Both the position numbers and the translations under genes were made by a program. A DNA stretch of 61,053 bases from a virus, in IMG/VR virus record IMGVR_UViG_3300032278_004243, positions 1 to 61,053 of that record. One strand, given 5' to 3'. A model generated the notes under the pieces. That model was not told where the DNA came from and made no database searches. It worked only from the letters and a program-made list of their open reading frames with translations. How positions within the stretch are numbered: position 1 is the first letter of the stretch; each line of letters starts with the position of its first letter. Positions 14,324 through 61,053 of the stretch are shown here, one piece after another.

Positions 14324-14329
14324 GGTACC

Positions 14330-38793: not shown

Positions 38794-39486
38794 ATGACGG
38801 AAACGATCCTTGCGCAGAACATATCGGCGCTCCGCAGGCATCTGGGGAAAAACCAGACCGAGTTTGCTGAGCTGATCGGCACTCAGCAGGCCAATGTTTC
38901 GAAGTGGGAGTCGAAAGGGGTCGAGCCGACATCCGACTATTTGAGCGCGATGGCGGATTACGCAGGCGTGTCTATCCGTGAGTTCAAATCCGAGTTGTGG
39001 AAGCCGGGAGCCATCAATCGGCCGATAAAGTCTAACGTCTCGACCATCAGGGATTGGGCAGAAGAGCAGGGCTGGGCCCTTGTCGAAGAGGTTGACCTTG
39101 CCCTTGGCATGGGGGCTACGTTTCTAGATCCCAGCTATATTCCGGAAACGAAGGGCCTTGTGCCGTTTAAAGCTTCATGGCTCAGGGACATTTTTCGCGG
39201 ACCAGTCTCACATCTTAAGGTCGTGAGAGGCAGCGGCGACAGCATGGAGCCGACAATCCGCGACGGTGACTTCGTCCTGCTTGATACGTCGAAGCGGCGC
39301 CTCGACGAGCAAGATGTCATCTGGGCAGTAAGCTACGGCGATCTCGGTATGATCAGGAGGCTTCGGCAGCTACCCGGCGGAGGCGTTTCGCTGATGCCCG
39401 ATAACCCGAATGTTCGGCCTATCGACGCCTATGACGGCGAAATGCATATCCTTGGCCGCGTGATCTGGATCGGGAGGCGCATGTGA
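38794..39486 (+). CDS. S24-family phage repressor (CI-like)
   Basis: This 230-residue protein has an N-terminal XRE helix-turn-helix (ISALRRHLGKNQTEFAELIGTQQANVSKWESKG, about 10-42) and a C-terminal LexA/CI-type domain. SGDSMEPTIRDGD gives the catalytic Ser140. The partner Lys, expected about 38 residues later in a V-K-R-L motif, reads M-I-R-R-L, so Arg178 stands at its place and self-cleavage may be impaired. It maintains lysogeny by binding the shared operators. Start at ATG 38794 is where the helix-turn-helix family usually begins. Confidence 0.85.
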   Translation: MTETILAQNISALRRHLGKNQTEFAELIGTQQANVSKWESKGVEPTSDYLSAMADYAGVSIREFKSELWKPGAINRPIKSNVSTIRDWAEEQGWALVEEVDLALGMGATFLDPSYIPETKGLVPFKASWLRDIFRGPVSHLKVVRGSGDSMEPTIRDGDFVLLDTSKRRLDEQDVIWAVSYGDLGMIRRLRQLPGGGVSLMPDNPNVRPIDAYDGEMHILGRVIWIGRRM

Positions 39487-39767: not shown

Positions 39768-40066
39768 TCGACCGGAGGTCGCTCTCGGGCCTGCCGTATT
39801 GCATCGTCGCTGATCGCCATCGGCTTGCGCTTGCGTGGCGCGCCAGCATAGGCCCAGCATACAACGTAGGTCCCAACCAGCACCAAAAAGACGAATGCAA
39901 ACAAGATGGCTGATCGGGTGTCAGCGGTCACGATAGCCCATCCCTTCAATACCCAGCGTTGAAGCCAATCCCGAAAATCGGGAAATGCCGTCGATAAGCC
40001 AACGAGGCCGGCGCCGAACGCAAAGGGGAAGCGGCCCATCGCCGCGCGAATCGTGGGCCAGCGCAT
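39764..40066 (-). CDS. Small membrane protein (convergent)
   Basis: Starting at the ATG at 40066 (a TTG at 40072 is in frame), this 100-residue protein has a strong C-terminal transmembrane segment (SAILFAFVFLVLVGTYVVCWAYAG, about 56-78) and a weaker N-terminal hydrophobic one. Its TAG stop and that of the facing gene share a CTAG palindrome. No Shine-Dalgarno sequence is visible. Not recognised. Confidence 0.45.
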   Translation of the reverse strand: MRWPTIRAAMGRFPFAFGAGLVGLSTAFPDFRDWLQRWVLKGWAIVTADTRSAILFAFVFLVLVGTYVVCWAYAGAPRKRKPMAISDDAIRQARERPPVD

Positions 40067-40173
40067 GGCCAAAGGTTATCTGCGGTCGCGGCATTGCCAA
40101 CCCCACAAACCCATTTTCCTACAAGCCCGCCGGTCGTCATGATCGGCACCGCGACTATACCTGATAAAAAAGA

Positions 40174-40191
40174 ATATGCACACAGGCATTT
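40174..40191. promoter_or_regulatory. Operator 1 of rightward operon, ATATGC-N6-GCATTT
   Basis: ATATGC (40174-40179), six bases, GCATTT (40186-40191): a dyad with one arm mismatch, 30 bases centre to centre from the next operator, i.e. on nearly the same face of the helix. It lies in the AT-rich intergenic region before the rightward operon. Confidence 0.6.
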
Positions 40192-40203
40192 TTACGCTTG
40201 TAA

Positions 40204-40221
40204 ATATGCCTAGAAGCATAT
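40204..40221. promoter_or_regulatory. Operator 2 of rightward operon, ATATGC-N6-GCATAT (perfect)
   Basis: A perfect 6-base-arm dyad, ATATGC (40204-40209) and GCATAT (40216-40221), flanked by TTGTAA (40198-40203) and TATAGA (40219-40224), a possible promoter with short spacing. The repressor bound here would silence the accessory/integration operon. Confidence 0.6.
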
Positions 40222-40270
40222 AGACCGTTTCCAACAGCCGGACACGCTCCGGCCAGCTTGGAGACCCCCG

Positions 40271-40456
40271 ATGGCCATTCACGCCGACTTCGACACCAGC
40301 ACCGCGACCGAGATCGGTTGCGATCTGCTGGCTGGTGCCAGCGACATTGTCCGCTTCGACGGCGCCACGATCTCGTTCCGCAACGACGCCGATCTGGTCC
40401 GCCTGTTCGCAGCGGACGGCAACCGCGCCGATGCCCTGACCGGGGAGGCGCTGTGA
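40271..40456 (+). CDS. Small hypothetical protein, first gene of rightward operon
   Basis: This 61-residue acidic protein (MAIHADFDTSTATEIGCDLLAGASDIVRFDGATISF) is the first gene after the tandem operators. Its stop overlaps the next start (TGATG). No family recognised. Confidence 0.6.
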   Translation: MAIHADFDTSTATEIGCDLLAGASDIVRFDGATISFRNDADLVRLFAADGNRADALTGEAL

Positions 40457-41293: not shown

Positions 41294-41466
41294 TCGACAC
41301 CTACAAGCGCCTGCACCGCCAGGAACAGGAATCACGCGCTGCCGCCGGGCTAGAGCCGAGCAAGTTTGGCCCGCTCACCAGCCTCGTAATCGGCTGCATC
41401 CTAACGCTGGCAAGCTGGCTCGCCATCTTTGCCATTGTCGCCTTCATTGGAGCCCTCATGTCATGA
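41290..41466 (+). CDS. Small single-pass membrane protein
   Basis: A GTG start overlapping the previous stop gives 58 residues: a basic N-terminus (IDTYKRLHRQEQESR) and one long hydrophobic helix (LTSLVIGCILTLASWLAIFAIVAFIGAL). Probably anchored in the inner membrane with the N-terminus in the cytoplasm. Function unknown. Confidence 0.55.
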   Translation: MIDTYKRLHRQEQESRAAAGLEPSKFGPLTSLVIGCILTLASWLAIFAIVAFIGALMS

Positions 41467-42116
41467 CCGACATCCCGACCTATACCGCCGCCAAAGCGGA
41501 GCGCCTGATCCGTGCCAAGAAGGTGACTGGCGAATACCACGTCACCGGCTCGCTCTACCTCAGCGGCTGCGACCTGTCCGGCGTCACGCTGCCTGCCAGC
41601 GTCGGCGGATGGCTCGACCTCAACGGCTGCGACCTGTCCGGCGTCACGCTGCCTGCCAGCGTTGGCGGCTCGCTCGACCTCAGCGGCTGCGACCTGTCCG
41701 GCGTCACGCTGCCTGCCAGCGTTGGCGGCTCGCTCTACCTCAGCGGCTGCGACCTGTCCGGCGTCACGCTGCCTGCCAGCGTTGGCGGCTCGCTCTACCT
41801 CAGGGGCTGCGACCTGTCCGGCGTCACGCTGCCTGCCAGCGTTGGCGGCTCGCTCTACCTCAGGGGCGCGAAAAATCCCGATCCCACGCAGTGGTGGCAA
41901 GAAAACGGTGAGGCTACGCGCCGTCGCTGCATCGCTGTCTGCCCCCGTGATGGTTATGCGCTGGTCCAGACTGACACCGATCGATTCAGCGCCGGGTGCC
42001 GCAGTGGCCTGACGCGCAAGCAGGCGCTGGCGCATTGGAGCCGTAAGGACGCCCGCGCGAAGCTGTTCACGGCGGCTATACTGGCGGCGGTGTTGCCGGA
42101 AAGCGTGGCGGTATGA
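41463..42116 (+). CDS. Tandem 20-residue repeat protein
   Basis: This 217-residue protein has a helical start, then five complete copies and one partial copy of a 20-residue repeat (consensus GSLYLSGCDLSGVTLPASVG, residues about 29-136), and a C-terminal domain with CIAVCPRDGYALVQTDTDRFSAGCRSGLTRKQALAHW. The repeat, with LYL-SGCDLSGVTLP, suggests a right-handed beta-solenoid akin to pentapeptide or short leucine-rich repeats. The DNA repeats are almost identical over 60 bases, so copy number can change by recombination. Confidence 0.7.
   Translation: MTDIPTYTAAKAERLIRAKKVTGEYHVTGSLYLSGCDLSGVTLPASVGGWLDLNGCDLSGVTLPASVGGSLDLSGCDLSGVTLPASVGGSLYLSGCDLSGVTLPASVGGSLYLRGCDLSGVTLPASVGGSLYLRGAKNPDPTQWWQENGEATRRRCIAVCPRDGYALVQTDTDRFSAGCRSGLTRKQALAHWSRKDARAKLFTAAILAAVLPESVAV
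41547..41868. repeat. 60-bp tandem repeat, 5.4 copies
   Basis: A 60-base unit starting GGCTCGCTCTACCTCAGCGG repeats at 41547, 41607, 41667, 41727, 41787 and partly at 41847. Copies differ by a few bases only, mainly in the TACCTC/GACCTC and GTCGGC/GTTGGC positions. The array keeps the reading frame of the repeat protein. Confidence 0.9.
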
Positions 42117-44955: not shown

Positions 44956-45240
44956 ATGGCCAGCACCGTACTCAGCACCGCCGACCGGCTTGCCAACCTC
45001 CTCAAGGAGCACGTGAGCGCGGACCCGCGCGACTATCCCGACGCAACCACGCTCAAGATGGTCGACACGCTGAACCTCGACAGCCTCGACATGGTCGAGC
45101 TCATCATGGCCATCGAGGACGAGTTCAACATCAGCATCCCCGATGATGGTGCGGAACCGTTCGTTGCCGATCGCGGCGGCGCCAGCGGCAAGACCTTTGC
45201 CGACTGGGTCGCTTGGGTCGACGGGATGGTTGCAGCATGA
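44956..45240 (+). CDS. Acyl carrier protein-like protein
   Basis: This 94-residue acidic protein has the ACP signature LNLDSLDMVELIMAIEDEFNISIPDD with Ser43 in DSL, the site of 4'-phosphopantetheine attachment, and the following helix II. It is slightly longer than bacterial ACP (about 78 residues) because of GAEPFVADRGGASG between helices. It lies right after RecT. Whether it is modified by the host phosphopantetheinyl transferase, and for which acyl group, is unknown. Confidence 0.75.
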   Translation: MASTVLSTADRLANLLKEHVSADPRDYPDATTLKMVDTLNLDSLDMVELIMAIEDEFNISIPDDGAEPFVADRGGASGKTFADWVAWVDGMVAA

Positions 45241-45446
45241 CCGCCGGCGCCATCAAGCCGAACGCACCGCTCGATGCCACGCAGGGCGAGCGGCTGATGG
45301 CGCGGGCCAACTGCGCCGCGCGGTGCCGGGACAGGGGCGAGGAAGAGCTCGCGCTCGCCTTTGAGGCTGGCACTCAAGATGAGGGCTACGCCATGCGGCA
45401 CGAGGTGGCCAAGCTGCGGGCGGAGCAGGGGAGGGCGGGCGCGTGA
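45237..45446 (+). CDS. Small hypothetical protein
   Basis: This 69-residue helical protein (MTAGAIKPNAPLDATQGERLMARANCAARCRDRGEEELALAFEAG) starts overlapping the ACP stop (ATGA). Not recognised; may be linked with the ACP by position only. Confidence 0.55.
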   Translation: MTAGAIKPNAPLDATQGERLMARANCAARCRDRGEEELALAFEAGTQDEGYAMRHEVAKLRAEQGRAGA

Positions 45447-46006
45447 GTCTTCCCCCATTCCCCGATGCAGACACCATCCGTGAGCTCGTGCGGTATGAGC
45501 CCGAAACCGGCAAATTGTTCTGGCAGCATCGACCGGCGCGGTTCTTTCCGTCCGTCAGGTATCAGAAAATCTGGAACTCGCGGCAGGCTGAGACCGAGGC
45601 ATTCGTTCGGCTGAACGAACAGGGCTATCTTGTCGGAACCCTGCTTGCTGTTCCGCGCGCAGCGCATCGCGTCGCATGGCTTTGCATGCAGGACGAGCTT
45701 CCACCAGAGATTGATCACATCAACGGCAATCGACTGGACAATCGTTGGTGCAACCTCGCGGCATCCGATCGGCAAACTAATGCGAAAAATCAGAAGCTGT
45801 ATTCGAACAACACGTCAGGATGCTCGGGAGTTGTCCTCACTGCCTATGGTACGTGGCGCGCGCAGATAGCTGTCGGTCAATCGCGTAAGATTTCGCTCGG
45901 CACTTATCGCACGAAAGAAGAAGCGGTTGCCGCTCGCCGCGCTGCCGAAATGCAGCATGGCTATTCAGAGCGGCACGGAAAGGCGGGGTGCTCAAGTGCT
46001 GCCTAA
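45443..46006 (+). CDS. HNH homing-type endonuclease with AP2-like domain
   Basis: This 187-residue protein (GTG start in a GTGA overlap) has an HNH core HRVAWLCMQDELPPEIDHINGNRLDNRWCNLAASDRQTNAKN and a C-terminal AP2-like DNA-binding domain (GCSGVVLTAYGTWRAQIAVGQSRKISLGTYRTKEEAVAARRAA). This is the standard layout of phage HNH-AP2 homing endonucleases. Codon use is less GC-rich than that of neighbours (AAT, CAT, ATT codons), consistent with recent insertion. Confidence 0.85.
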   Translation: MSLPPFPDADTIRELVRYEPETGKLFWQHRPARFFPSVRYQKIWNSRQAETEAFVRLNEQGYLVGTLLAVPRAAHRVAWLCMQDELPPEIDHINGNRLDNRWCNLAASDRQTNAKNQKLYSNNTSGCSGVVLTAYGTWRAQIAVGQSRKISLGTYRTKEEAVAARRAAEMQHGYSERHGKAGCSSAA

Positions 46007-46223
46007 CCCCGGCCATTTGCCTGAGGAATGCATCATTACTGATCCCAAGACGGGAGAAGTGAAGGGGTATCGCCTTGTTCACATTCGGCTTTTCAACGGG
46101 TGGGACAGCCGCAAGGCCGGGACCAACCCTTGGCCCGCTCGGGGCGGACGTCCTCCAACAAATTGGAGCATCCGCCGCCCGACTCCGCACCCTTTCGACA
46201 TCAAGGAGTTCGAACCGCAATGA
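45996..46223 (+). CDS. Small hypothetical protein
   Basis: Starting at the GTG at 45996, this 75-residue protein (LPNPGHLPEECIITDPKTGEVKGYRLVHIRLFNGWDSR) overlaps the HNH gene by 11 bases and the next gene by 4. Proline- and Arg-rich; no family recognised. Confidence 0.5.
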   Translation: MLPNPGHLPEECIITDPKTGEVKGYRLVHIRLFNGWDSRKAGTNPWPARGGRPPTNWSIRRPTPHPFDIKEFEPQ

Positions 46224-46585
46224 CCGTTAATCACACCACTGCCGACGCCCTGATCGCCGACGCGATCTGGTGGTTCAAGGGCTTCCGCGCCGCGCAGCCC
46301 GCTGACGCCAGCGACCCGACCGACAACCTCGGCCACAGCTTGCTGCGCGTCCGGGAATGGCTCAATCGCCTGCCGCTCGGCGTGTCGCGGCTCCTGGGTA
46401 CCAGCGAGCGCACGTTCGCCTGCGTGATCACCGAGCACGAGCTCGAGGTCATCATCGAGGGGCTGATATGCCGCACCAAGGAGGACCGTGACGCGGCTCT
46501 GGAAAAGGCGCGCGCAATCCACAAGCAGTTCATGGCTGAGTGCAAGGAAGTGACGGCGCACACCTATGCCGAGGTGCCGTTCTGA
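46220..46585 (+). CDS. Hypothetical helical protein
   Basis: This 121-residue protein (MTVNHTTADALIADAIWWFKGFRAAQPADASDPTDNLGHSLLRVREW) is helical with a short C-terminal TYAEVPF tip. It starts in an ATGA overlap and its stop touches the methyltransferase start. Not recognised. Confidence 0.55.
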   Translation: MTVNHTTADALIADAIWWFKGFRAAQPADASDPTDNLGHSLLRVREWLNRLPLGVSRLLGTSERTFACVITEHELEVIIEGLICRTKEDRDAALEKARAIHKQFMAECKEVTAHTYAEVPF

Positions 46586-47949
46586 TGAACGCGGTCGCGC
46601 TCCCCCTGACCGTGGCCGACATTGTCGCCGAGTACGAGGCGAAGGATGCGGCCATCGCCAGCGAGATCAAGGCGCTCGACGAAGCCTTCACGCGGCTCGA
46701 TATGGCCGCCACGGTGCAGGGCGCTTATGTCGAGCGCGTGGCCCAGCGGCCTTACCTGCACATCGACACCCTGCGCCGGAACTTGCTCAAGTCTGGCTGG
46801 CGCGCGGTTTATCAGCGCCTGCAGATCGATGCGATTGCCAGCGCCAAGGACCGCAAGCTTTTTGAACAGGCAATGGTCAGCCCGCCGCCGCTCACGGTGG
46901 AGACGGCCAAAGCGACCTTCGGCGACTATCTGATCCGTCCCCGCTTCCACATCCTGCGCGGCCTCGCCGAGGCGTTTTGCGCGCTCGATCCGGCCTATAA
47001 GTCGCACAGCCGCGTCCGCATCGGGGTCAAGGGCTTGCCCAAGCGCGTGGTGCTGAACCACTGGGGCGGCTTTTCCAGCACTTATGGCCGCGAACGGTTC
47101 CAGGACATGGCCAACGCGCTCGCCGCCTATCGCCGCCAGTCGCCGGTCGAGTGGTGCGAGATGCTGGACATCGACGACCAGCACAAAGCGGGCAGCGATG
47201 CCGTGATGAATGGTCGCGTGCTCAAGCGGTACAGGAACGCCGGGCAGGAGGAAGAGTACCACGCCCCCGATCGCGGTCTTACCATCCGCAAGTTCGGCAA
47301 CGGCAATGCTCACGTCTATTTCGACCAAGACGCGCTGCATGCCGTCAATCGCGCGCTGGCCGAGTTCTACGGCGAGGTCCTGCCCGATGCCGAGCCGGAG
47401 GGCGTGAAGCCCAGCTATAGCACTGCGGTAGCGAAGGACCTGCAGTTCTACTGGTCGCCACCCGAAGTCGTCGAGCGCGCGCTGGCGTTTGCAGGCATCC
47501 CCGATCTGCGCGAGTGGGGCCGCGACCACACCCGCCGTCCGGCGCCGATGCAGGTGCTGGAGCCGAGCTGCGGCGATGGTCGTATTCTCGATCTGTTGCG
47601 CACTTATGGGCACAACCGGTTTGGCATCGAGTACCATCGAGGCCGCGCAGCCGAGGCAAAGGCCAAGGGGCACGACGTCTTCTGCGCCAACTTCCTCGAT
47701 TGCGAACCAAGGCCGTTTGAGGCGGTGGTGATGAACCCGCCGTTCTATGGCCGGCACTACCTCTACCACGTCAGCCACGCTCTGCGCTTCGTCCAGCCGG
47801 GCGGCGTCCTCGTCGCCATCCTTCCCGCCACCGCGCGCTACGATCACGGCGATCTGCATGGCGAATGGGAAGACCTGCCCGTCGCCAGTTTTGCCGAGGC
47901 CGGCACCAACGTTCCCACTACCATGCTCAAGATCAGGAAGCCCGCATGA
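46585..47949 (+). CDS. DUF4942 and adenine methyltransferase protein
   Basis: This 454-residue protein has a helical N-terminal DUF4942-like region (about 1-280) and a C-terminal class I methyltransferase domain with motif I VLEPSCGDGRIL and motif IV VVMNPPFYG (Asn384-Pro-Pro-Phe), as in N6-adenine DNA methyltransferases. The product may protect phage DNA or mark the host genome. The same kind of gene is often found next to PRTRC cassettes. It precedes the ParB-like gene with a 4-base overlap. Confidence 0.8.
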   Translation: MNAVALPLTVADIVAEYEAKDAAIASEIKALDEAFTRLDMAATVQGAYVERVAQRPYLHIDTLRRNLLKSGWRAVYQRLQIDAIASAKDRKLFEQAMVSPPPLTVETAKATFGDYLIRPRFHILRGLAEAFCALDPAYKSHSRVRIGVKGLPKRVVLNHWGGFSSTYGRERFQDMANALAAYRRQSPVEWCEMLDIDDQHKAGSDAVMNGRVLKRYRNAGQEEEYHAPDRGLTIRKFGNGNAHVYFDQDALHAVNRALAEFYGEVLPDAEPEGVKPSYSTAVAKDLQFYWSPPEVVERALAFAGIPDLREWGRDHTRRPAPMQVLEPSCGDGRILDLLRTYGHNRFGIEYHRGRAAEAKAKGHDVFCANFLDCEPRPFEAVVMNPPFYGRHYLYHVSHALRFVQPGGVLVAILPATARYDHGDLHGEWEDLPVASFAEAGTNVPTTMLKIRKPA

Positions 47950-49427
47950 CTGAGAAAGCCCTGACCCTGCCGCTGTCGCTGATCCAGCCCGGCGGCAATC
48001 CTCGCCGGTTCTTCAATCCGGCCAAGCACGAGGAGCTGGTTGCGTCGATCCGCCTGCGCGGGCTGCTGCAGCCGCTGCTTGTCCGCCCCGCGCCAGATGG
48101 CGACAACTACCTGCTCGTCGCTGGCGGGCGGCGCTACCGGGCCGCGCTTGAGGTCTACGGCGCCGAGGGTCTGGTCCCGGTGATCAGCCGCGAGATGACC
48201 GATCAGGAAGCGCTCGAGGCTGCGATCGACGAGAACGACGTCCGCGAGGATGCCTCTGAAACCGAACAGGCCGACGCCGCGCTGCGCATCCTCGCCGCCT
48301 GCCAGGACGATCGCGCCGAGGCCGCGCGCCGTCTGGGCTGGTCGACCTTCAAGCTCGACCGCCGCCTTGCGCTCGCCGGGCTGTCCGATGCGGTGAAGGC
48401 CGCGCTGGACGAGCGCCGCATCAAGGTCGGCCATGCCGAGCTCCTTGCCGCCGTGCCAGCCGACAAGCAGGACAAAGCGCTGGAGACGATCCTCACCTCT
48501 GGCATCGATGTCGCCAAGACGCGCGAGCTGCTCCAGCGTGTGACGCAGAACCTTGCCGCGGCGACTTTCGACAAGACCGAATGTGCCGGATGCGGCTACA
48601 ACTCCGCCCGCCAGCGCGCGCTGTTCGAGACCCACGTCGAGGATGGCCACTGCACCAACGGCGCCTGCTTTGCGCTGAAGGTCGAGGCTGCCGAGAAGGC
48701 CCGCGCGGTGGCGGAGCCTGTGATTGAACCGGATTCCGGAGAGGCGAGTGACGAGAACCGCTCGGAGGCTGTGCCGAGTGTCGACCGTCCAAGTACCCCG
48801 GATAGCCCGCCTGCTTCCCAGCCGGAGCAGGCGGGCGCCCCTGCCGCAACAGAGCCGCAGAGCAATTTGCAGAAAACGCAAAGAACTCAAGCCGCGCCCG
48901 CCAAGCCCAAGGTCACCTCCGAAGGCCTCCGCACCAAGTTGAAGCCGGTGCGGGAGCAGGCCTGGCGCGCCGCCGTGGCCGCTGCGATCGCCGAGAGCGC
49001 TGATCACGTCCGCATCGCCGACTTTGCTGCGCAGTGCGTGACCAGCGGCTTGCATGTCAGCTTCGATCAGGTCGTCAGCCTTGCGGGCTATCTCGAGGTC
49101 GATCTCCGCACGACATGGCGCGTCGACGGCGATTTCTTGCACCCGCTCGGCAAGGACGAGCTCAAGTTCATTGCCGAGGAATGCGGCTTGATCGCGCATC
49201 TCGGCACGAAGCGGTTTGCCAATGTGCTGGCCGGCAAGACGCACGAGATTATCGCCAGCATGCTCCACGCCACCGGCTTCGACTGGGCTGGCCGCATTCC
49301 CAGCTGCATGTCGCTCGACGGCAAGTACGGCGCGCCGCCAGCCGCCGAGGAGCCGGCCGAACAGATCGCCGGGCCGGAAAGCGACGAGCCGCAGGCCGAC
49401 GTCACCCCTAAAACCGAAGAGGCCTGA
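47946..49427 (+). CDS. PRTRC ParB-like protein
   Basis: This 493-residue protein begins with a ParB/Srx-like domain (LPLSLIQPGGNPRRFFNPAKHEELVASIRLRGLLQPLLVRP, LLVAGGRRYRAAL) and helix-turn-helix (EAARRLGWSTFKLDRRLALAGL). A four-Cys region follows (ECAGCGYNSARQRALF...GHCTNGACF), then a long linker and a C-terminal helical domain. The Cys region and C-terminal domain distinguish PRTRC ParB proteins from partition ParB. It is the first PRTRC gene here and ends 4 bases before protein E. A DNA-binding nuclease or clamp role is possible. Confidence 0.85.
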   Translation: MTEKALTLPLSLIQPGGNPRRFFNPAKHEELVASIRLRGLLQPLLVRPAPDGDNYLLVAGGRRYRAALEVYGAEGLVPVISREMTDQEALEAAIDENDVREDASETEQADAALRILAACQDDRAEAARRLGWSTFKLDRRLALAGLSDAVKAALDERRIKVGHAELLAAVPADKQDKALETILTSGIDVAKTRELLQRVTQNLAAATFDKTECAGCGYNSARQRALFETHVEDGHCTNGACFALKVEAAEKARAVAEPVIEPDSGEASDENRSEAVPSVDRPSTPDSPPASQPEQAGAPAATEPQSNLQKTQRTQAAPAKPKVTSEGLRTKLKPVREQAWRAAVAAAIAESADHVRIADFAAQCVTSGLHVSFDQVVSLAGYLEVDLRTTWRVDGDFLHPLGKDELKFIAEECGLIAHLGTKRFANVLAGKTHEIIASMLHATGFDWAGRIPSCMSLDGKYGAPPAAEEPAEQIAGPESDEPQADVTPKTEEA

Positions 49428-49431
49428 TCCG

Positions 49432-49848
49432 ATGCTGATCACCAATCTGTTGCCGCTGCTCGCCCGCTATTCGCTCGGCTTTGACCTTGTCGCCGGGGCA
49501 GACGATGTCGTCACGCTTACCGTGATCCCGCGCAAGGCCGAAGGCGCCAAGCAAGCACTGGAACCCGGCGAGGCCCGCCCGATCTCGATCACCGGCACGG
49601 CGGCCGAGATCGACGAGCAGCTCGCCCTCGGCGCCGAGGGTGCGCTCGGCCAGATTTTCATCGCGCGCCGCGAACTGGCGGACCAGCTGGCCGAACAGCG
49701 CAAGGCCGCCGAGGACGCCAAGGCCGCAGTCGCGAGCAAGGCCAAGCCCGCCGCGAAGGCAGCGCCAGCGCCCACGCCCGCCAAGGCCGCACCGGTACCA
49801 ACGCCCGCGCCAGCCCCGGCGGCGGACGAGCCGCTCTCCCTCTACTGA
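49432..49848 (+). CDS. PRTRC protein E-like
   Basis: This 138-residue protein has an N-terminal alpha/beta part (MLITNLLPLLARYSLGFDLVAGADDVVTLTVIPRKAEGAKQ, then PISITGTAAEIDEQLALGAEGALGQIFIARRELA) and a low-complexity Ala/Pro/Lys tail. The first part matches the PRTRC E family by pattern and position (ParB-E-C-F-B-A-ThiF). Function unknown. Confidence 0.75.
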   Translation: MLITNLLPLLARYSLGFDLVAGADDVVTLTVIPRKAEGAKQALEPGEARPISITGTAAEIDEQLALGAEGALGQIFIARRELADQLAEQRKAAEDAKAAVASKAKPAAKAAPAPTPAKAAPVPTPAPAPAADEPLSLY

Positions 49849-49864
49849 TCGTCAGGAGCCTCCG

Positions 49865-50074
49865 ATGGAAGTCACCACGCTCACCCGCGTCTACCGCTAC
49901 GACGGCATCGACCTGCCGGTTCCGCCGCACCTCGCCGGCGATGCCGCCGCGCTGCGCGCTTATCACGCGACGCTCTACCCCGCGATCCTGAACGCCGAGG
50001 CGGTCGACCTGGGCGTGACCAACGGCGCGCTGGTGACCGAGTACCGCCGCGCTGTCGGCACCAAGGGCCGATGA
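49865..50074 (+). CDS. PRTRC protein C, ubiquitin-like
   Basis: This 69-residue protein (MEVTTLTRVYRYDGIDLPVPPHLAGDAAALRAYHATLYPAIL) matches PRTRC protein C, the small ubiquitin-like (Prok_Ub) component. Strand-turn-strand (VTTLTRVYRYDG) and the central helix fit a beta-grasp. It ends AVGTKGR, so cutting after the last Gly would expose a GTKG terminus. AGGAG precedes the ATG. It is the likely protein modifier of the cassette. Confidence 0.75.
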   Translation: MEVTTLTRVYRYDGIDLPVPPHLAGDAAALRAYHATLYPAILNAEAVDLGVTNGALVTEYRRAVGTKGR

Positions 50075-50271
50075 ACGGCGTCCCGCCACCGCCCCGCAAA
50101 ACCCTTCTGGAATGGATCGAAACCGATGACGGCGACACGTCCGGCGATGCCCGCCCCGTCTGCAGCATCTCGCAGCAGGCCCTCCATGCGACCCTCGGCG
50201 GCACGCTTGAAGGCAGCGGGCACGAACCTCTTGCGCCGCCAGCCCAGCTCTTCCTCGCGCCTCTCGGCTGA
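50071..50271 (+). CDS. Small frame overlapping PRTRC F start
   Basis: This 66-residue frame begins in an ATGA overlap with protein C and encodes a balanced sequence (MNGVPPPPRKTLLEWIETDDGDTSGDARPVCSIS). It shares DNA with the first 48 codons of protein F as annotated. Because the F frame in that stretch is Arg/Ser/Pro-rich and looks non-coding, this small gene may be real and F may start later (for example GTG at 50306). Confidence 0.4.
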   Translation: MNGVPPPPRKTLLEWIETDDGDTSGDARPVCSISQQALHATLGGTLEGSGHEPLAPPAQLFLAPLG

Positions 50272-51238
50272 TCTGGCGGGCAGGACGGTTGCGCTGTCGC
50301 CGGCGGTGCCGTTCGGCTTCGACGAGCCGCTGCCGCCGCACCACAAGCTGATTGGCCGCTGGATCGCCGCACATCAGCCGAGCGACCGGGTGATGACCCG
50401 GATGGAAGCGCGCCAGCACATCGAGGCGGCGTTTGATGCTGCGGTTATGGACGCGCTGGGGCGCATCGACATCGCCGACTTCCGCGTCGTGGTCTTGACC
50501 GGCGATGTCGAGAAACCGCCCGCGCTTGCGATCATCTGCGACAGCATCGGGCAGGTCGAACTTGGCTGGATCGAACAGACCAATGTGCTTGCGAATACGC
50601 TCAAGGGCCGCGTCGCTCCGGTGGGTTGGCGCGCGCGGGCCTACAAGGCGCTTGCCGATACGCTCGCCGCCGCGCTGCCGCTCTTCACCTACGACGAGAT
50701 GTTCGAAGAACTGGCGGGCATGTACTGGGACGGCGAGACTGAAGACGGTCCAGCCGTCCAGTCGGCAGAGATGCTTGGGTACGATCCCAACGACATCATC
50801 CTGCCGTCGCAGGTTCACGCCAAGAAGCCCGACTTCATGCTGGCCGAGAATGCCGCGCCGCTGAAGGGGCTCCCTCCCGCGCTGGCGGCGATCCTTCGTC
50901 GTCTCGACAAGGCCCACACCGCGCTGATCGCGATCAAGGAGGGCAATGCTTGGTGGTTCGAGCACGACCAGCTGCTCGAATACGCTCCGGAGTACGAGGA
51001 CGCTGCCTACCTGCCGCCCATGACGCTGGTCCCGGTCGATCACTTCAATGCCGAGGTCGACGAGGTCGGGCGCATGGGGATGGAAAGCATCTTCCAGAGC
51101 GCGGCGGGGCTTTGTCCGATCACCGATGTCGCCGCGATCAATCGCTGGTTTGAGACGCTGCGCCTCGGCGCCGATCTGCTGACCGCTGCGCAGGACCTGA
51201 TCGCATTCGATCCTTTTGCCGACCGGGGGCGAGCATGA
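50126..51238 (+). CDS. PRTRC protein F-like
   Basis: This 370-residue protein (or about 310 if it starts at GTG 50306) has a conserved body: IGRWIAAHQPSDRVMTRMEARQHIEAAFDAAVMDALGRIDIADFRVVVLTGDVEKPPALAIICDSIGQVELGWIE. Later come ALPLFTYDEMFEELAGMYWDGETED and AAINRWFETLRLGADLLTAAQ. Its size and position match PRTRC F. The first 50 residues are low-complexity. No catalytic motif is visible. Confidence 0.75.
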   Translation: MTATRPAMPAPSAASRSRPSMRPSAARLKAAGTNLLRRQPSSSSRLSADLAGRTVALSPAVPFGFDEPLPPHHKLIGRWIAAHQPSDRVMTRMEARQHIEAAFDAAVMDALGRIDIADFRVVVLTGDVEKPPALAIICDSIGQVELGWIEQTNVLANTLKGRVAPVGWRARAYKALADTLAAALPLFTYDEMFEELAGMYWDGETEDGPAVQSAEMLGYDPNDIILPSQVHAKKPDFMLAENAAPLKGLPPALAAILRRLDKAHTALIAIKEGNAWWFEHDQLLEYAPEYEDAAYLPPMTLVPVDHFNAEVDEVGRMGMESIFQSAAGLCPITDVAAINRWFETLRLGADLLTAAQDLIAFDPFADRGRA

Positions 51239-52020
51239 GCGTCTCGACCGAATTTCAGGCGACGGGCGGTGGCCTGATGCTGTCGCAGGCCATCCTGCTC
51301 TATCAAGACAGTGGCCGCAGCAATTTTTACGACGCCCCCAAGGCTTTCGCCAGCATGCACGGCATCGAGGAGCAGGACGGCAAGCCGGTGATCGCCGCCG
51401 GCGCCCCGCTCACCCGCGCACACCTGCGCAAGTGGACCTCGCTCCTTGGCCGTGCCGCCGCGCCGGAAATCCTGCCCGAAAACGTGCTGGTTTCGCACCC
51501 GGACATGCTGGCGTGGTGGATCCCCGAACGCGTCCGCATGGCGCACTTCGCGATCAGCCGCCCGACCGCTGACCTGAAGGTACTCGGCCAGCGCACCACA
51601 GTCGCGGTGCCCTATCCGGCGCACCTGCTGATTGCCACGCGGCGCAGCCTCGGCGTCTATGCCCTCACGGGCAACAAGCGGCCCACCGCCGAGACCGTGG
51701 CTTGTCACTCGCCGGTTCTGAACGTGTTCATCGATGGCAAGCTCTGCTGGGGCAACATCGCCAAGCCCAAGGCGCTCGGCATCGCTGCGATGGCGCAATT
51801 CGAAGCGGCGGTGTTCGACTCCTGGTCGACGCATCCCAACGCCGGGCAGGATCAGGCCATCACCGGCAAGGGCGGTCTGGTCCGCCTCTGGGATGATCTC
51901 GCCGCGCGCAAGGCAAAGACGTTCCCGGTCCGGCGCCTGAAGCCGTTTCTGACGACGGTGCGCGGCAAGACAAAGGGCCAGCCGCTGACGGTGGGCCAGC
52001 TGATCGCGGGAGGCGCATGA
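51235..52020 (+). CDS. PRTRC protein B, E2-like
   Basis: This 261-residue protein matches PRTRC protein B. Residues 158-174 read HSPVLNVFIDGKLCWGN, i.e. an H-x-P-x2-NV-x3-G-x2-C pattern like the HPN...C active site of ubiquitin-conjugating (E2) enzymes, with candidate active Cys171. The N-terminal part has AILLYQDSGRSNFYDAPKAFA. It would receive the small modifier from the ThiF-like protein and pass it on. 4-base overlaps join it to F and the next gene. Confidence 0.8.
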   Translation: MSVSTEFQATGGGLMLSQAILLYQDSGRSNFYDAPKAFASMHGIEEQDGKPVIAAGAPLTRAHLRKWTSLLGRAAAPEILPENVLVSHPDMLAWWIPERVRMAHFAISRPTADLKVLGQRTTVAVPYPAHLLIATRRSLGVYALTGNKRPTAETVACHSPVLNVFIDGKLCWGNIAKPKALGIAAMAQFEAAVFDSWSTHPNAGQDQAITGKGGLVRLWDDLAARKAKTFPVRRLKPFLTTVRGKTKGQPLTVGQLIAGGA

Positions 52021-52604
52021 TGCTGGAAACCCGCGAGCCCGACGCCATCCACGAACGCCTTCGCAAGGCGGTGGAGAAGAAGCAATCGTCCTACCTCTGG
52101 ATCCCGGAGCATTCGATCACCTTCACGCCGCGCTTGTTGCCGGTGATCTGCGGCGATGGCCGCGCGCTGTTCACTTTGAGGACGACCAACCAGCGGCCCG
52201 CGTACTGGATCATCCGGGGCTGCAGCACTTGGGGCTGTGGTTACGATCGCGAGGATTCGTCGGGGCCCGACTTTGCCGAGCTCACCGATGACCTGATGTA
52301 CGAACTTGAGGACCACTTTGGGCGCGGTCGCTGCGGCTACTCCGGCAACAGCCTGTTTTATCCGCGCCGGGAACGCATCCAGTGGTGCCAGTGCGAGGAA
52401 TGCGACGAGAAGCGCTGGAAGGCCCGCTGGCCAATGGTCGATGACGATGGCGGTTGCTCCTGGAGCCGCATGGACTGGCCGGAAGGGTTCCCGACCGTTC
52501 GGCACTGGCTGAGTTGGCAGGGCAACCTCTTGGACAACCAGCCGCGTTGGCCCGCCGATGTCGCGGTGCCGCTCCGCGCTCTTGATGTGCAGGTGGCAGC
52601 ATGA
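52017..52604 (+). CDS. Hypothetical protein within the PRTRC cassette
   Basis: This 195-residue protein, inserted between B and A, contains many Trp and Cys (WIIRGCSTWGCGYDREDSSGPDF, WCQCEECDEKRWKARWPM), suggesting a metal-binding domain. It is not part of the usual PRTRC set as I know it. ATG start overlaps B (ATGATG). Could be a cargo gene or a substrate or regulator. Confidence 0.55.
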   Translation: MMLETREPDAIHERLRKAVEKKQSSYLWIPEHSITFTPRLLPVICGDGRALFTLRTTNQRPAYWIIRGCSTWGCGYDREDSSGPDFAELTDDLMYELEDHFGRGRCGYSGNSLFYPRRERIQWCQCEECDEKRWKARWPMVDDDGGCSWSRMDWPEGFPTVRHWLSWQGNLLDNQPRWPADVAVPLRALDVQVAA

Positions 52605-53257
52605 GCCTCGCCGCCGACCCCACCGCCGCCGCGGTGCTGGAGGCTTTCCCCTGCCATCCGGTGCCGCCCATGGGCAGCGCACCCACCATCGATGCGCTGC
52701 GCGAGGCACGCGCCGGGCAGGGCTTCATCGTTGGCCAAAACGGCATAATGCTGATCCTGCGCAGGCCGTGGCTGGCGCTCGATTACCGCGTGACCGAGGG
52801 GCCGGAGTGCCATGTGCCTTACGGTGCGGTGGGCCCGGATGCGCTGCATTTCCGGTGCGGCAACATCCCCGCCGTGCTGATGGAACAGACGCTCGAGTAT
52901 TTCATCGCAGCGCTGCCGAACGAGGCCGCGGCTTTTATCCTCTGGCACGAACAGGCGCGGACGTTCCGCCTCGAGTTCCCGGAGATCGACGCCGCGACGC
53001 CCAGCCGCCTTGTCTACCGGCCGCCGGTGCTGGGGCAGGGCTGGCATCTGGTCTGCGACATCCACAGCCACGGCGCAGGGCATGCGTTCTTCAGCGGTAC
53101 CGACGATGCGGACGATGCGCACAGCACCAAGATCGCTGTCGTGGTCGGCACGCTCGGCACCGATTCCATCCCGACCTTCAAGGCGCGCCTCTGCGCCGGG
53201 GGCATGTTCCTGACCCTGCCAGGGTTGCCATTCGAGGGGGCGCCCGATGCAGCCTGA
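52601..53257 (+). CDS. PRTRC protein A, JAB/JAMM metalloprotease
   Basis: This 218-residue protein carries a JAMM motif: His155-x-His157-x7-Ser165-x-x-Asp168 (DIHSHGAGHAFFSGTDDA) with a candidate upstream Glu in LPNEAAAFILW (Glu108). JAB peptidases cut at the C-terminus of ubiquitin-like proteins to mature or remove them. PRTRC A proteins have this composition. It overlaps the ThiF-like gene by 11 bases. Confidence 0.85.
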   Translation: MSLAADPTAAAVLEAFPCHPVPPMGSAPTIDALREARAGQGFIVGQNGIMLILRRPWLALDYRVTEGPECHVPYGAVGPDALHFRCGNIPAVLMEQTLEYFIAALPNEAAAFILWHEQARTFRLEFPEIDAATPSRLVYRPPVLGQGWHLVCDIHSHGAGHAFFSGTDDADDAHSTKIAVVVGTLGTDSIPTFKARLCAGGMFLTLPGLPFEGAPDAA

Positions 53258-54047
53258 GAACCGTCACTACCTGCCCGCCAATATGCAGGACCGGGCGCTG
53301 AAGCTGCTGCTGATCGGCTGCGGCGGTAACGGTGCCCAGATGCTCATGGGGCTGGCCTCGCTCGATACGGCATTGCGAGAGATCTCGTCGCGCTCGCTCG
53401 ATGTCACCGTGGTGGATGACGACACCGTCAGCGAGGCCAATCTCGGCCGCCAGCCGTTCTACCGCTGCGATCTCGGTAATTCCAAGGCGCGCACGCTGGT
53501 CGAGCGGATCAACATCGCGCACGGGCTCAACTGGCATGCCGTGCATGGCCGGGCACCCGGGGCCATCGGCGTCGGCGGCCACGATCTCGTCATCACTTGC
53601 GTCGACACCGCCGCCGCTCGGCGCGCGATCGGCGCCGCGATGCAGCCAGACCCGCAGAACTACAATCACATCCCGCCCGCCTACTGGCTCGATCTCGGCA
53701 ACCGCGCCACCGACGGCCAGTTCCTGATCGGCCAGCCGGCGCGCAAGTACGATCGCGACGATCTGCGCCGCCTCCCCACCGTGCTCGAATACTTCCCCGA
53801 GCTCGCGGACGAGACCGTGGTCGAGGACGACGCGCCCAGCTGCTCGGTCGCCGAAGCGCTGGAGCGGCAAAGCCTCTTCATCAACCGCGTCGTCGCCAGC
53901 CATGCCCTGGTCTTGCTGTTCGAACTGCTCGGCCGCGGTTCGATCGGCCACGCCGGCGCCTTCATCAATCTCGCCAGCGGGCAGGCCGTGCCGATCCCGC
54001 TGCCCCCAATCCCGAACCCCACCGCGCAGGAGGCGCAAGCAGCATGA
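53247..54047 (+). CDS. PRTRC ThiF / E1-like enzyme
   Basis: This 266-residue protein has an adenylating-enzyme Rossmann fold: LLIGCGGNGA (Gly24-x-Gly-Gly-x-Gly29), VVDDD at 55-59, NLGRQP (65-70) and LGNSKARTLVERI, all E1/ThiF hallmarks. A likely thioester Cys is Cys199 (DDAPSCS), a position conserved before a helix VAEALERQSLFIN. It would activate the ubiquitin-like protein C with ATP. A GAGGGGG ribosome site lies 6 bases before its ATG. Confidence 0.85.
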   Translation: MQPENRHYLPANMQDRALKLLLIGCGGNGAQMLMGLASLDTALREISSRSLDVTVVDDDTVSEANLGRQPFYRCDLGNSKARTLVERINIAHGLNWHAVHGRAPGAIGVGGHDLVITCVDTAAARRAIGAAMQPDPQNYNHIPPAYWLDLGNRATDGQFLIGQPARKYDRDDLRRLPTVLEYFPELADETVVEDDAPSCSVAEALERQSLFINRVVASHALVLLFELLGRGSIGHAGAFINLASGQAVPIPLPPIPNPTAQEAQAA

Positions 54048-54721
54048 GCGAGACCAATCTGACCAACCTGATCAGCAGCGCTGTCGCTGCCCGCCTCGAT
54101 AGCGATTTCATCGAAAAAGAAATCCAGACCCGCGTCGACAAGCTGATCACCGAAAGCATCGACCGGGCGCTGCGCACCTACAGCGAAACTGGAAAGCTGA
54201 TTGAGAAGGCGGTGGAGGATTCGCTCCGCGTCGAACGCATCGATCTGCCGAGCTATGGCGTCACCGTCGCCAAGATGGTGAAGGCGGCCGTGGAGCATCA
54301 CGTCGCTGATATCGTGCAGGGCCGCCTCAAGCAGGATGTGGAGGAGCTGCTCCACCTCGCGCCGAAAACGGTGAAGCTTTCCGAGATCGCCGAGATGATG
54401 CTGGAGCAGCACAAAGGCGACGGTGAATATGGCGAGGTCACCACCTTCATCATCGGCGAAAGCTCGTACAAATCGCGGTGGTTTTATCTCGACGACGAGA
54501 AGGTGATCAAGGAGCGTGACAAGTACAGCTGCAAGTACCGACTGCTGGTCGGTGATGACGGCATCATCAGCTCGGTTTTCATCGGGGAGAGCAAAGCCAG
54601 CCCCGACCGCTGGATTGGCCGCTCTTACGGATTCGAACAGCGCCTTCGCGCGTTCGTCGCATGCGGCACCGTGATCGAATTCGACACGGAATACCCCTGC
54701 ACTACCGTGGGGGACTATTGA
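54044..54721 (+). CDS. Hypothetical protein after PRTRC ThiF
   Basis: This 225-residue protein (MSETNLTNLISSAVAARLDSDFIEKEIQTRVDKLITESIDRAL) has an N-terminal coiled-coil-like part and a C-terminal beta-rich part with RWFYLDDEKVIKERDKYSCKYRLLVGDDGIISSVF. It starts in a 4-base overlap with ThiF. It is not a ParM-like protein D. Not recognised. Confidence 0.6.
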   Translation: MSETNLTNLISSAVAARLDSDFIEKEIQTRVDKLITESIDRALRTYSETGKLIEKAVEDSLRVERIDLPSYGVTVAKMVKAAVEHHVADIVQGRLKQDVEELLHLAPKTVKLSEIAEMMLEQHKGDGEYGEVTTFIIGESSYKSRWFYLDDEKVIKERDKYSCKYRLLVGDDGIISSVFIGESKASPDRWIGRSYGFEQRLRAFVACGTVIEFDTEYPCTTVGDY

Positions 54722-59552: not shown

Positions 59553-59845
59553 CCCAGCTGCTCACCGAAGCCGAAGCGGCTCAGCTGCTCCGCATCGGCG
59601 AGCGGACGCTGCGCGAGCTGCGGAAGGCCCGGAAGATCCGCTATGTGGCAATCACCGCGCGGAAGATCGCCTATCGCCTCGAGGATTGCGAAGAGTACAT
59701 TGCCTCCTGCGTGCGGCTCGATTCGGCCGAGCGCGGGAACGATGGCCAGATGCAGGGCAAAGGCGGACGCGGCCGGGCCAGACCAGCCGCATCGATGCGG
59801 ACCGGCAATATCGTGCCCTTCAGCCAGAGGAAGGCGCTTGCTTGA
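59549..59845 (+). CDS. Excisionase-like helix-turn-helix protein
   Basis: This 98-residue protein begins with a MerR/HTH_17-type DNA-binding domain (LLTEAEAAQLLRIGERTLRELRKARKIRYVAITARKIAYRLEDCEEYI), as in phage excisionases. It overlaps the integrase gene by 4 bases (TTGA), fitting a directionality factor. The C-terminal part is basic and disordered. Confidence 0.75.
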   Translation: MTQLLTEAEAAQLLRIGERTLRELRKARKIRYVAITARKIAYRLEDCEEYIASCVRLDSAERGNDGQMQGKGGRGRARPAASMRTGNIVPFSQRKALA

Positions 59846-61053
59846 CCGTCTACCGCCACCAGAACAGCCCCTACTGGCACTACGAATTCCAGATGAAGGG
59901 CGTCCGGCACTACGGCTCGACCTTCTGCACATCAAAGCGCGATGCCGAGCGCTTCGAGCGCGATCGCCGGACCGAGGCCGCGACCGGGCGCACCGAGAAG
60001 CCATCGATCACGCTCGATCTCGGCTTTGGCCTGTTCTGGGAGACGAAGGGCCGCTTCGACAGCGCGCACAAGACCACCGAGTACCAGATGGCCAACCTGC
60101 TGCGCCTGCTGCCAGCCGGAATGCTGCTGCACGATCTGGACGACATCACGATCAGCGCTTTCATCGCCCGCCGCCGCGGCGAGCCGAAGCGCAGCCAGGT
60201 GGCGAAGCCGCGCAGCGCCAGAAAGGGTCGCAAGGCCAAGCCAGCCGCACCGGCCGCGCCGATATCGATCGAGTACGTCTCGAACGCCAGCGTCAACCGC
60301 GAGGTGCAGCTGCTCCGCCGCATCATCCGCTTCCTCGCCAGCCGCTACCGGGCACCAGAGATCGATTGGGCGCAGCACAAGCTGAAGGAACAGGAAGGCC
60401 GTGCCCGCGAGATGCAGCCGGATGAGGAACGCGCCCTGTTCGAACGCCTGCGCGCCGAGGACAACGACCTCGCCGATCTGGTCGAGTTCGCCATGCTCTG
60501 CGGCACCCGCAAGGACGGCGCCCGCACGCTCCTTTGGTCCAAGGTCGATCTGAAGGCCGGGTTTGCCGAGGTGCACACCAAGGGCGATGTCTGGCACCGC
60601 TTCCCGCTCACCCAGCGCATGAAGATGATCATCGCCAATCGGCCCAAGGTCGGGCCCTATGTGTTCACTTACGTCTGCCGTCGCCCGGCACCGCCGAAGA
60701 TGGGACCAGACGGCAAGCTCCAGCCGCGCCGCCTCGCCGGCGAGCGCTATCCTTTCAGCAAGCAGGGCTGGGACCGCCGCTGGCGCCGCATCCTGAAGGA
60801 TGCCGGGATCACCGATTTCCGCTTCCACGATCTGCGCCATACCGCAGGTTCTCGCATCACCCGCGCTGGCGGCCTACGCACCGCTCAGAAGATCCTTGGC
60901 CACACCCGGATTGAGACCACCGCCCGCTATGCGCACGTGACCGAGCATGACATGCTTTCGGCGATGGAAGCTGCAGACCAGTCCCGGAATAGTCCCGAAG
61001 CACTTCTGAACCGCGCCCCCGAAAAGCGTGCAAATTCAGGCGGTAAACTATAA
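59842..61053 (+). CDS. int: Tyrosine-type integrase
   Basis: A TTG start overlaps the excisionase stop and gives 403 residues, ending at the last base of the window. It has an N-terminal AP2-like arm-binding part (VYRHQNSPYWHYEFQMKGVRHYGSTFCTSKRDAE), a core-binding domain and a catalytic domain with Arg223 (CGTRKDGART), His329-x-x-Arg332 (HDLRHT), His354 (LGH) and nucleophile Tyr363 (TARYAHV). All catalytic residues are present, so it is probably active. It ends an operon that starts 20 kb away. Confidence 0.92.
   Translation: MTVYRHQNSPYWHYEFQMKGVRHYGSTFCTSKRDAERFERDRRTEAATGRTEKPSITLDLGFGLFWETKGRFDSAHKTTEYQMANLLRLLPAGMLLHDLDDITISAFIARRRGEPKRSQVAKPRSARKGRKAKPAAPAAPISIEYVSNASVNREVQLLRRIIRFLASRYRAPEIDWAQHKLKEQEGRAREMQPDEERALFERLRAEDNDLADLVEFAMLCGTRKDGARTLLWSKVDLKAGFAEVHTKGDVWHRFPLTQRMKMIIANRPKVGPYVFTYVCRRPAPPKMGPDGKLQPRRLAGERYPFSKQGWDRRWRRILKDAGITDFRFHDLRHTAGSRITRAGGLRTAQKILGHTRIETTARYAHVTEHDMLSAMEAADQSRNSPEALLNRAPEKRANSGGKL

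Follow-up and report, generated by a model that had tools for sequence, protein, structure and literature searches.

The PRTRC cassettes of plasmids are represented by the families TIGR03734–TIGR03742, and in pSH2 of Sphingobium xenophagum, for example, the genes lie in the order ParB, E, C, S, F, B, A and ThiF. In the portion of Iyer, Burroughs and Aravind (2006; PMC1779556) available to us, operon type 6d is described as combining a ubiquitin-like protein with a C-terminal glycine, a JAB protein with an N-terminal arginine/tryptophan domain, an E1-like protein, an E2-like protein with a downstream histidine and an alpha-helical protein. BilABCD and the Cap2–Cap3 genes of CBASS (cyclic oligonucleotide-based anti-phage signalling systems), according to the excerpt of a review at our disposal, hold E1, E2, JAB and a ubiquitin-like protein or target in one operon. 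No description of PRTRC function was found in the literature searched, and phage-borne PRTRC was not described in the titles or abstract openings searched, a scope that left preprints and most subscription journals outside. Here we report that a window of 61,053 bases (64% G+C), which is one whole IMG/VR virus record (IMGVR_UViG_3300032278_004243), carries at positions 47946–54047 a genuine PRTRC cassette of ParB, E, C, F, B, A and ThiF, as confirmed by profile searches, and that this cassette probably encodes a self-contained pathway for the conjugation and deconjugation of a ubiquitin-like protein, serving phages as an early accessory module with DNA replication or genome maintenance as its likeliest target. 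What is new is a set of details on a known cassette, phage-specific features among them, namely the small protein S, the extensions and fusions of C, the tip of E and the phage lineages themselves.

Families were called by profile searches with NCBIfam, Pfam, PHROG and PADLOC, each score being read against the cut-off of the family. A preliminary description made from the window alone had recognized PRTRC genes in the order ParB, E, C, F, B, A and ThiF at 47946–54047; order and coordinates proved correct, and the identity was borne out, with five of the seven named proteins passing their NCBIfam cut-offs and C passing that of Pfam Prok_Ub. All cassette genes lie on the plus strand. The ParB-family protein (493 amino acids, 47946..49427) reached 356.6 bits with TIGR03734 (cut-off 278.6) and contains the Pfam ParB_N and HTH_ParB domains, and protein E (138 amino acids, 49432..49848) reached 81.5 bits with TIGR03741 (cut-off 37.95). 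Protein B (51235..52020), E2-like with C171 and H200, scored 170.6 bits with TIGR03737 (cut-off 131.45) and matched Pfam Prok-E2_D; protein A (52601..53257), a JAB/JAMM metallopeptidase with a DUF2016 domain, scored 158.7 bits with TIGR03735 (cut-off 101.8) and matched Pfam DUF2016 and Prok-JAB; and the ThiF/E1-like adenylyltransferase with C199 (53247..54047) scored 269.3 bits with TIGR03736 (cut-off 144.75). The ubiquitin-like protein C (69 amino acids, 49865..50074), which ends in GTKG-R, matched Prok_Ub over residues 2–66 as one domain with 59.7 bits (cut-off 25), and covered the whole of TIGR03738 (PRTRC_C) with 38.8 bits, under the cut-off of 45.95, at E 7.5e-10; its relatives in the second phage lineage described below (lineage 2) score above the PRTRC_C cut-off. 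The largely helical protein F (50126..51238) was reached by its position and by a profile link to relatives that score with PRTRC_F, and so the profile search of each protein, which the preliminary description had proposed, identified F only via its relatives.

All seven genes are there, but the count of seven fell short, as the cassette in truth has nine open reading frames. Of the two overlooked, S (66 amino acids, 50071..50271), which ends in APLG and overlaps F out of frame, was recognized by tblastn conservation and its codon-position pattern. The other encodes a cysteine-rich protein of 194 amino acids between B and A (52020..52604) without a match in Pfam, NCBIfam, PHROG or PADLOC. Among the 190 loci collected here (labelled L with a number), it was found only in the nearest relative, represented by L002, L019 and L153; elsewhere it gave one weak match in plasmids and none in INPHARED phages.

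The order of the cassette is the same as in plasmid PRTRC, and ThiF is 76% identical to that of pSH2. The phage cassettes differ from the plasmid ones in forming a separate lineage, the window phage in having the extra gene between B and A, and the lineage-2 phages in being without a PRTRC ParB and in having C mostly extended or fused. With operon type 6d the window shares the E2 cysteine and histidine, the JAB arginine/tryptophan domain, a glycine-ended ubiquitin-like C (here with an additional arginine) and a helical F, whereas the available portion of that paper (PMC1779556) says nothing about phages, S, the extensions of C or the tail of E. Compared with BilABCD, C has a single ubiquitin-like domain where BilA has two, and the cassette adds ParB, E, F and S. 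A further member is found in the Burkholderia phage BgVeeders33 (OK665841), a complete GenBank genome from sewage with Burkholderia gladioli as host, which encodes E, C, S, F, B, A and ThiF, mostly annotated as hypothetical; it gave no PRTRC ParB match, and its C has 62 residues past GTKG.

Catalytic residues were counted over every locus with the respective match, near copies included (about 160 loci). Cys171 of B was present in 164/164 and His200 in 162/164 (one gap, and one glycine in L018). In A the HxH motif (H155, H157) was found in 157/157, Glu108 in 156/157 (one gap) and Ser165 and Asp168 in 156/157, while in the N-terminal DUF2016 domain R55 was nearly invariant and W57 invariant among 13 sequences. 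ThiF had Arg68, Gln69 and Lys80 in 169/171 (two gaps), Asp120 in 170/171 (one gap) and Cys199 in 171/171, the last count being biased because the Cys199 motif belonged to the locus search patterns; B and A played no part in that search. Since the catalytic residues of E2 and JAMM hardly vary among the loci, the cassette, which is apparently catalytically intact, looks like a working ubiquitin-like pathway. These residues, together with Pfam and NCBIfam, also back the relation of C, B, A and ThiF to ubiquitin, E2, deubiquitinase and E1 that the preliminary description had suggested. In pDEGR-2 of Deinococcus grandis (L018), ThiF and B lie about 3 kb apart in a different order, and B is without the downstream histidine.

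The sequence of C is constant up to the GTKG-type end and variable beyond it, and among 117 distinct C proteins one, that of L029, whose frame is broken, was without the GTKG motif. In 54/54 sphingomonad C proteins with the motif the chain stops at GTKG or after a single further residue, as in the window phage with its GTKG-R, and none of the 16 sphingomonad viral C proteins is extended. Outside the sphingomonads, 19 of the 52 distinct viral C proteins have an S-like end (called from the C-terminal ending, L051 being a weak case), 29 carry other extensions of 61–100 residues and 4 have 0–1 residue, and 4 of the 10 distinct non-viral C proteins are extended, 1 of them S-like. The 19 viral C proteins with an S-like end are apparent fusions of C to S. 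TIGR03738 is a domain-type model, so tails may have been foreseen when it was built. Because a constant glycine end precedes tails that are unlike one another, we infer that C is processed by the JAMM protease A, and the variable extensions beyond the constant GTKG predict the cut site of the modifier.

In the pathway proposed here C would be the modifier, which A would trim to the conserved glycine of GTKG, thereby removing one arginine in the window phage and often 61–100 residues in lineage-2 phages. ThiF would then adenylate C and load it through Cys199, and B would carry it as a Cys171 thioester and attach it to target proteins, from which A could strip it again. E, F and S, as well as ParB in sphingomonad phages, would be accessory or targeting subunits. 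The families, the catalytic residues, the GTKG boundary, the extensions and fusions of C, S and the phage lineages are established at the level of sequence; from that basis we infer that conjugation is likely to occur, and we propose in which direction C is processed and what it is attached to.

S was detected by tblastn in 88/88 sphingomonad-like loci containing C (64 distinct sequences, 89 rows). F follows in the +1 frame in 88/89 rows, and PLG precedes the stop in the listed rows (LLG in L020/L103). Ahead of the F overlap the codon-position diversity of S was 0.23, 0.13 and 0.43, which is coding-like; within the overlap the last third (0.29, 0.19, 0.53) had the pattern of coding in the S frame, and the first (0.42, 0.35, 0.38) and middle (0.47, 0.43, 0.52) thirds had no clear pattern. 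Outside the sphingomonad group a small open reading frame was present at this place in 64/64 loci in which C and B were found, 44 times separate and 20 times in frame with C; four loci in which C was not found were unscored, and L015 was added by hand. This criterion is loose in G+C-rich DNA and was judged by eye, and the claim is carried by the alignment of the C-terminal ends and by profile matches, namely sphingomonad S against Bosea S (E 1.6e-5) and lineage-2 S against other, mainly betaproteobacterial, S (E 1.5e-6). S is thus a constant occupant between C and F wherever C was scored. A single S family across all lineages was rejected, the E values across groups being within or near those of control families (0.077–0.81): sphingomonad S gave 0.44 with lineage-2 S and 0.031 with the others, and lineage-2 S gave 0.75 with Bosea S. 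Because these matches (E 0.031–0.75) do not stand out from the controls, the S groups are joined by position only. The codon-position diversity of lineage-2 S is nearly flat (0.53, 0.47, 0.58), and the median ratio of nonsynonymous to synonymous substitution rates in non-sphingomonad S, 0.78 over 1166 non-independent pairs, is weak evidence. S had no Pfam or NCBIfam match; in gene tables it is hypothetical in L008, L011 and BgVeeders33 and unlisted in L009 and L012–L014, the plasmid tables being incomplete. S accounts for part of an unevenly annotated interval.

The F of the window had no direct family match in NCBIfam or Pfam. Among nine records with F relatives at the same position, seven matched PRTRC_F (TIGR03742) at E 1 or better, only BgVeeders33 doing so above the cut-off, and the window and one sphingomonad plasmid were without such a match. 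In two further lineage-2 phages F scored above the TIGR03742 cut-off, and three sphingomonad F proteins matched weakly. Profile–profile comparison of sphingomonad F with the other F group gave E 4.1e-6, against 0.41–0.44 for control families. The conserved part of F begins at about 50270, in the +1 frame and precisely where S stops. Internal to S, an ATG in frame with F (50126 in the window) was found no more than three codons from the same position in 62/63 sequences, and in 50 of the 51 less alike sequences where 34.1 were expected from synonymous resampling, a comparison that kinship among the sequences keeps from being a probability. ATG 50126, internal to S, is therefore the likeliest start of F; in 5/6 sphingomonad plasmids read, its start is annotated downstream of the conserved ATG. 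A programmed +1 frameshift from S into F, which the start of conservation at the S stop would suggest, is disfavoured because the codon before the S stop varies (GGC, GGT, GGG), the stop is TAA in 3/89 rows and the in-frame ATG inside S is conserved. The predicted model of F is mostly helix, with a predicted local distance difference test score (pLDDT) of 92.2; no match at E 0.001 was obtained in BFVD, and the best VIA-align Z of 4.1 was uninformative.

PRTRC ParB was found above cut-off in 19 of 50 records, and a further record had a partial match at the end of its contig; every one of these belongs to the sphingomonad group. On this sequence evidence it lies outside the common core and is dispensable in phages. 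Protein D was absent from the window, from 27/27 virus records searched, from BgVeeders33 and from 6/6 sphingomonad plasmids read whole. It was present in 10 of 42 records searched, betaproteobacterial plasmids among them, and lies far from the cassette in the Polaromonas (about 50 kb) and Cupriavidus (about 24 kb) plasmids. The preliminary description had concluded from the missing D that any partition role must differ from that of plasmids; the absence itself stands, but because the sphingomonad plasmids with the same cassette are without D too, D cannot separate phage from plasmid use. We do not treat D as cassette-defining, as it is located outside the cassette in both betaproteobacterial plasmids in which it was placed. 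A canonical-like parS pattern had 15 matches in the window with 9.6 expected, and 4 of 100 shuffles reached as many; upstream of parB no palindrome was common to four or more loci.

A scan of IMG/VR for ThiF relatives yielded 99 viral contigs, 80 of which were kept; INPHARED held 2 matching records among 50,697, BgVeeders33 matching over 91% of the query, and PLSDB held 369 among 72,556. In a tree of B, A and ThiF combined, built by a quick method (74 rows after merging of identical ones), 18 of the 19 sphingomonad viral rows and five genome contigs formed one clade of 23 rows, with a Shimodaira–Hasegawa-like approximate likelihood ratio (SH-aLRT) support of 91, below the starred level. All five sphingomonad plasmid rows fell outside it, and the minimum number of viral/plasmid changes was 1. 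The genome contig L153 equals the viral contig L019 in concatenated protein. L039 (IMGVR_UViG_3300048918_000336) carries a viral label, but its cassette does not join the sphingomonad phage clade, and the contig could be a piece of a plasmid. In a ThiF tree of 93 rows, whose long branches caution against reading the deeper forks, lineage 2 comprised 52 viral and five genome rows and no plasmid, with support 99; it consists of Burkholderia-type phages and contains the isolated phage BgVeeders33. That the region might be an unrelated island inserted into the phage is not supported, the phage cassettes forming lineages of their own, and these lineages speak for prolonged maintenance of the cassette by phages.

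Structural genes were called for 20 selected proteins from eight partly opened records, one protein being without a match and one having matches of unknown function only. Within the first clade, sheaths belong to phrog_205 in the window, L019 and L033 and to phrog_165 in L036; L035 has the tape measure phrog_7740, L022 the terminase phrog_15 and L037 the portal phrog_2271; L023 and L025 have the terminase phrog_2 together with the internal virion protein phrog_511 or the portal phrog_156; L029 has the terminase phrog_9 and the major head protein phrog_10; and L028 has the terminase phrog_979 and the head protein phrog_212. The sequences thus place the sphingomonad phage cassettes in a lineage apart from plasmids, distributed across phages with different structural genes, and because the cassette rides in phages of different structural gene families, a portable accessory function fits. 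A sheath or portal common to PRTRC phages was rejected, phrog_205 and the portal of the window each occurring in 3 of the 50 records, window included. Since the terminase model phrog_2 was found in just 12 of the 50, the unopened records are phages by their IMG/VR label only. In the Sphingomonas turrisvirgatae contig L146 the cassette is truncated to part of B followed by A and ThiF, though the upstream DNA is covered.

As to the target, protein E provides a lead. Its AlphaFold model (mean pLDDT 74) shows a small folded domain followed by a tail that is disordered, residues 105–130 and 132–135 lying below pLDDT 50, with an alanine/proline-rich linker and the C-terminal tip DEPLSLY. In most lineages E has such a linker followed by a hydrophobic-aromatic tip (ASLW, LDLF, VDMY, etc.), and a pattern written for this tip fitted 90 of 120 distinct tails in strict form and 106 of 120 in looser form, compared with 1 of 78 other window proteins, a count that omits four loci with E not cleanly called. 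Clamp-binding peptides are often C-terminal with the consensus Q-L-x-L-F, as stated in the available part of PMC4549789, and the tail of E resembles such a tip, which makes it a candidate sliding-clamp binding motif. Comparison of E with PDB gave no chain at E 0.001 or better, the best VIA-align Z of 5.9 being uninformative. Apart from this, the record of L022 (G002) is that of a PRTRC phage encoding its own beta-clamp DnaN (13649–14746, 220 bits), and Polaromonas pPNAP01 has a diverged dnaN about 10 kb from its PRTRC cassette. Because ParB belongs to a DNA-binding family and the E tail looks clamp-binding, the target most likely belongs to the apparatus with which host or phage replicates its DNA or maintains its genome. 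The more detailed proposal, that phages keep these ubiquitin-like lineages for use on the replisome, with E docking on the clamp by its C-terminal tip, the JAMM protease maturing precursors including the fusion to S, and S being part of the machinery, we consider distinctly unlikely.

Several observations weigh against the conjugation pathway and target favoured here. The tip pattern was devised after the tails had been seen. Some tails are outside the pattern, e.g. those of L015, L160, L168 and L172, and the tip shares the L-x-L-aromatic part of the clamp consensus but is missing the glutamine. When 19 PRTRC records were searched for dnaN on the same element, 2 gave a match, one above and one below the cut-off. 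The other 30 of the 50 records, BgVeeders33 among them, did not pass the PRTRC ParB cut-off and gave four weak matches. Palindrome scans of the window for parS gave only a five-copy 60-base coding repeat at 41586–41842, which is in none of the 190 collected loci. F resembles no solved fold, as nothing in PDB matched it at E 0.001 or below. In viral contig L029 and genome contig L125, which hold the same cassette, the frame of C is split into pieces, and this copy may be dead, decayed or mis-sequenced. Finally, the interpretation as a whole is drawn from sequences and predicted models.

The window phage is, from its gene content, a temperate myovirus, because an S24 repressor, an integrase, sheath, baseplate, portal, large terminase, tape measure and DnaB were all found, the last six by PHROG profiles; the temperate setting supposed earlier thus holds, with repressor, structural genes and integrase identified. 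The CI-type helix-turn-helix repressor (38794..39486, plus strand; Pfam Peptidase_S24 and HTH_3) lies upstream of a plus-strand run of mostly overlapping genes that starts at 40271 and closes with a tyrosine integrase (59842..61053, plus strand; Pfam Phage_integrase, 83.4 bits; phrog_1), whose stop codon ends at the last base of the window. The named structural genes are all on the minus strand; repressor, cassette and integrase are on the plus strand. Wider gaps occur at 39768–40270 and 45447–46219, the second containing most of an HNH gene. The run also carries RecT, MT-A70, DUF1643 and a protein with DUF4942 and likeness to methyltransferases (46585..47949, plus strand; Pfam DUF4942, PHROG DNA methyltransferases), which flanks the cassette, and PRTRC is its 47946–54047 part. 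Because most neighbouring genes overlap by 1–11 bases between 46220 and 61053, where the integrase stops, the cassette probably belongs to one long transcript. Directly 3' of ThiF lies a phrog_2600 protein (54044–54721, plus strand; 132.9 bits), conserved in phages and of a function unknown to PHROG. An HNH endonuclease gene (45443–46006, plus strand) with a sub-threshold AP2 match, possibly of homing type, lies between RecT and the cassette; an acyl-carrier-protein-like gene (44956–45240, plus strand; Pfam PP-binding, 25.6 bits) adjoins RecT and has diverged copies in L019 and L099; and a repeat protein (41463–42116, plus strand) with LRR_1/pentapeptide matches contains the 60-base coding repeat, with a 17-base palindrome occurring five times at 41586–41842.

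The same enzymes could serve other ends. An early pathway whose tags put restriction or defence proteins of the host out of action, with plasmids doing likewise on cell entry, is a possible, if somewhat unlikely, explanation: the gene run that contains the cassette is long, probably early and includes RecT and methyltransferases, and related cassettes are carried by conjugative plasmids, but there is no known target, and a survey of the flanks of the 45 largest clusters, in which anti-defence genes were not searched for, lends no support. The opposite role, a prophage-encoded anti-phage defence like that of BilABCD or CBASS Cap2/Cap3, in which the ubiquitin-like protein would modify incoming phage or immune proteins and shield the lysogen, we regard as unlikely. 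BilABCD and CBASS Cap2/Cap3 serve in defence, and the cassette of the window is located between repressor and integrase, a usual place for lysogeny accessory genes. The enzyme classes are also those of known defence systems with ubiquitin-like proteins (as given in the same review excerpt), and the E1 domain weakly matches the E1–E2 models of PADLOC. Apart from this similarity and two weak matches of F, however, the cassette matched no PADLOC defence family, C differs from BilA in its number of ubiquitin-like domains, and plasmids with ParB commonly carry this core as well.

A segregation system made up of ParB and the rest of the cassette appears very improbable. ParB does have the ParB_N and HTH_ParB domains and is the first gene in the sphingomonad cassettes that cover that stretch, except in the truncated L146, but the integrase suggests chromosomal lysogeny, lineage 2 is without PRTRC ParB, D is absent and no parS candidate was found, ParA not having been searched for. 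Equally remote is a sulfur carrier in which C would resemble ThiS or MoaD and ThiF and A would act in cofactor or tRNA sulfur chemistry; a ThiF-fold E1 and a small glycine-ended protein are common to ThiS/ThiF, yet an E2-like protein with an invariant cysteine and a near-invariant histidine has no role there.

If the conjugation pathway favoured here, with its probable replication or genome-maintenance target, is confirmed as to conjugation, a ubiquitin-like pathway would be encoded by bacterial viruses. The tip of E would offer the first concrete candidate for a binding partner in PRTRC. Should the cassette moreover act on the replisome as proposed, it would be a prokaryotic parallel to the control of PCNA by ubiquitin and SUMO, and the fusion of the ubiquitin-like protein to S would resemble the eukaryotic fusions of ubiquitin to ribosomal proteins. 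Phages are small and genetically tractable carriers in which PRTRC may be tested, and the stability and portability of the cassette in phages of several structural types point to a function useful to many kinds of replicon.

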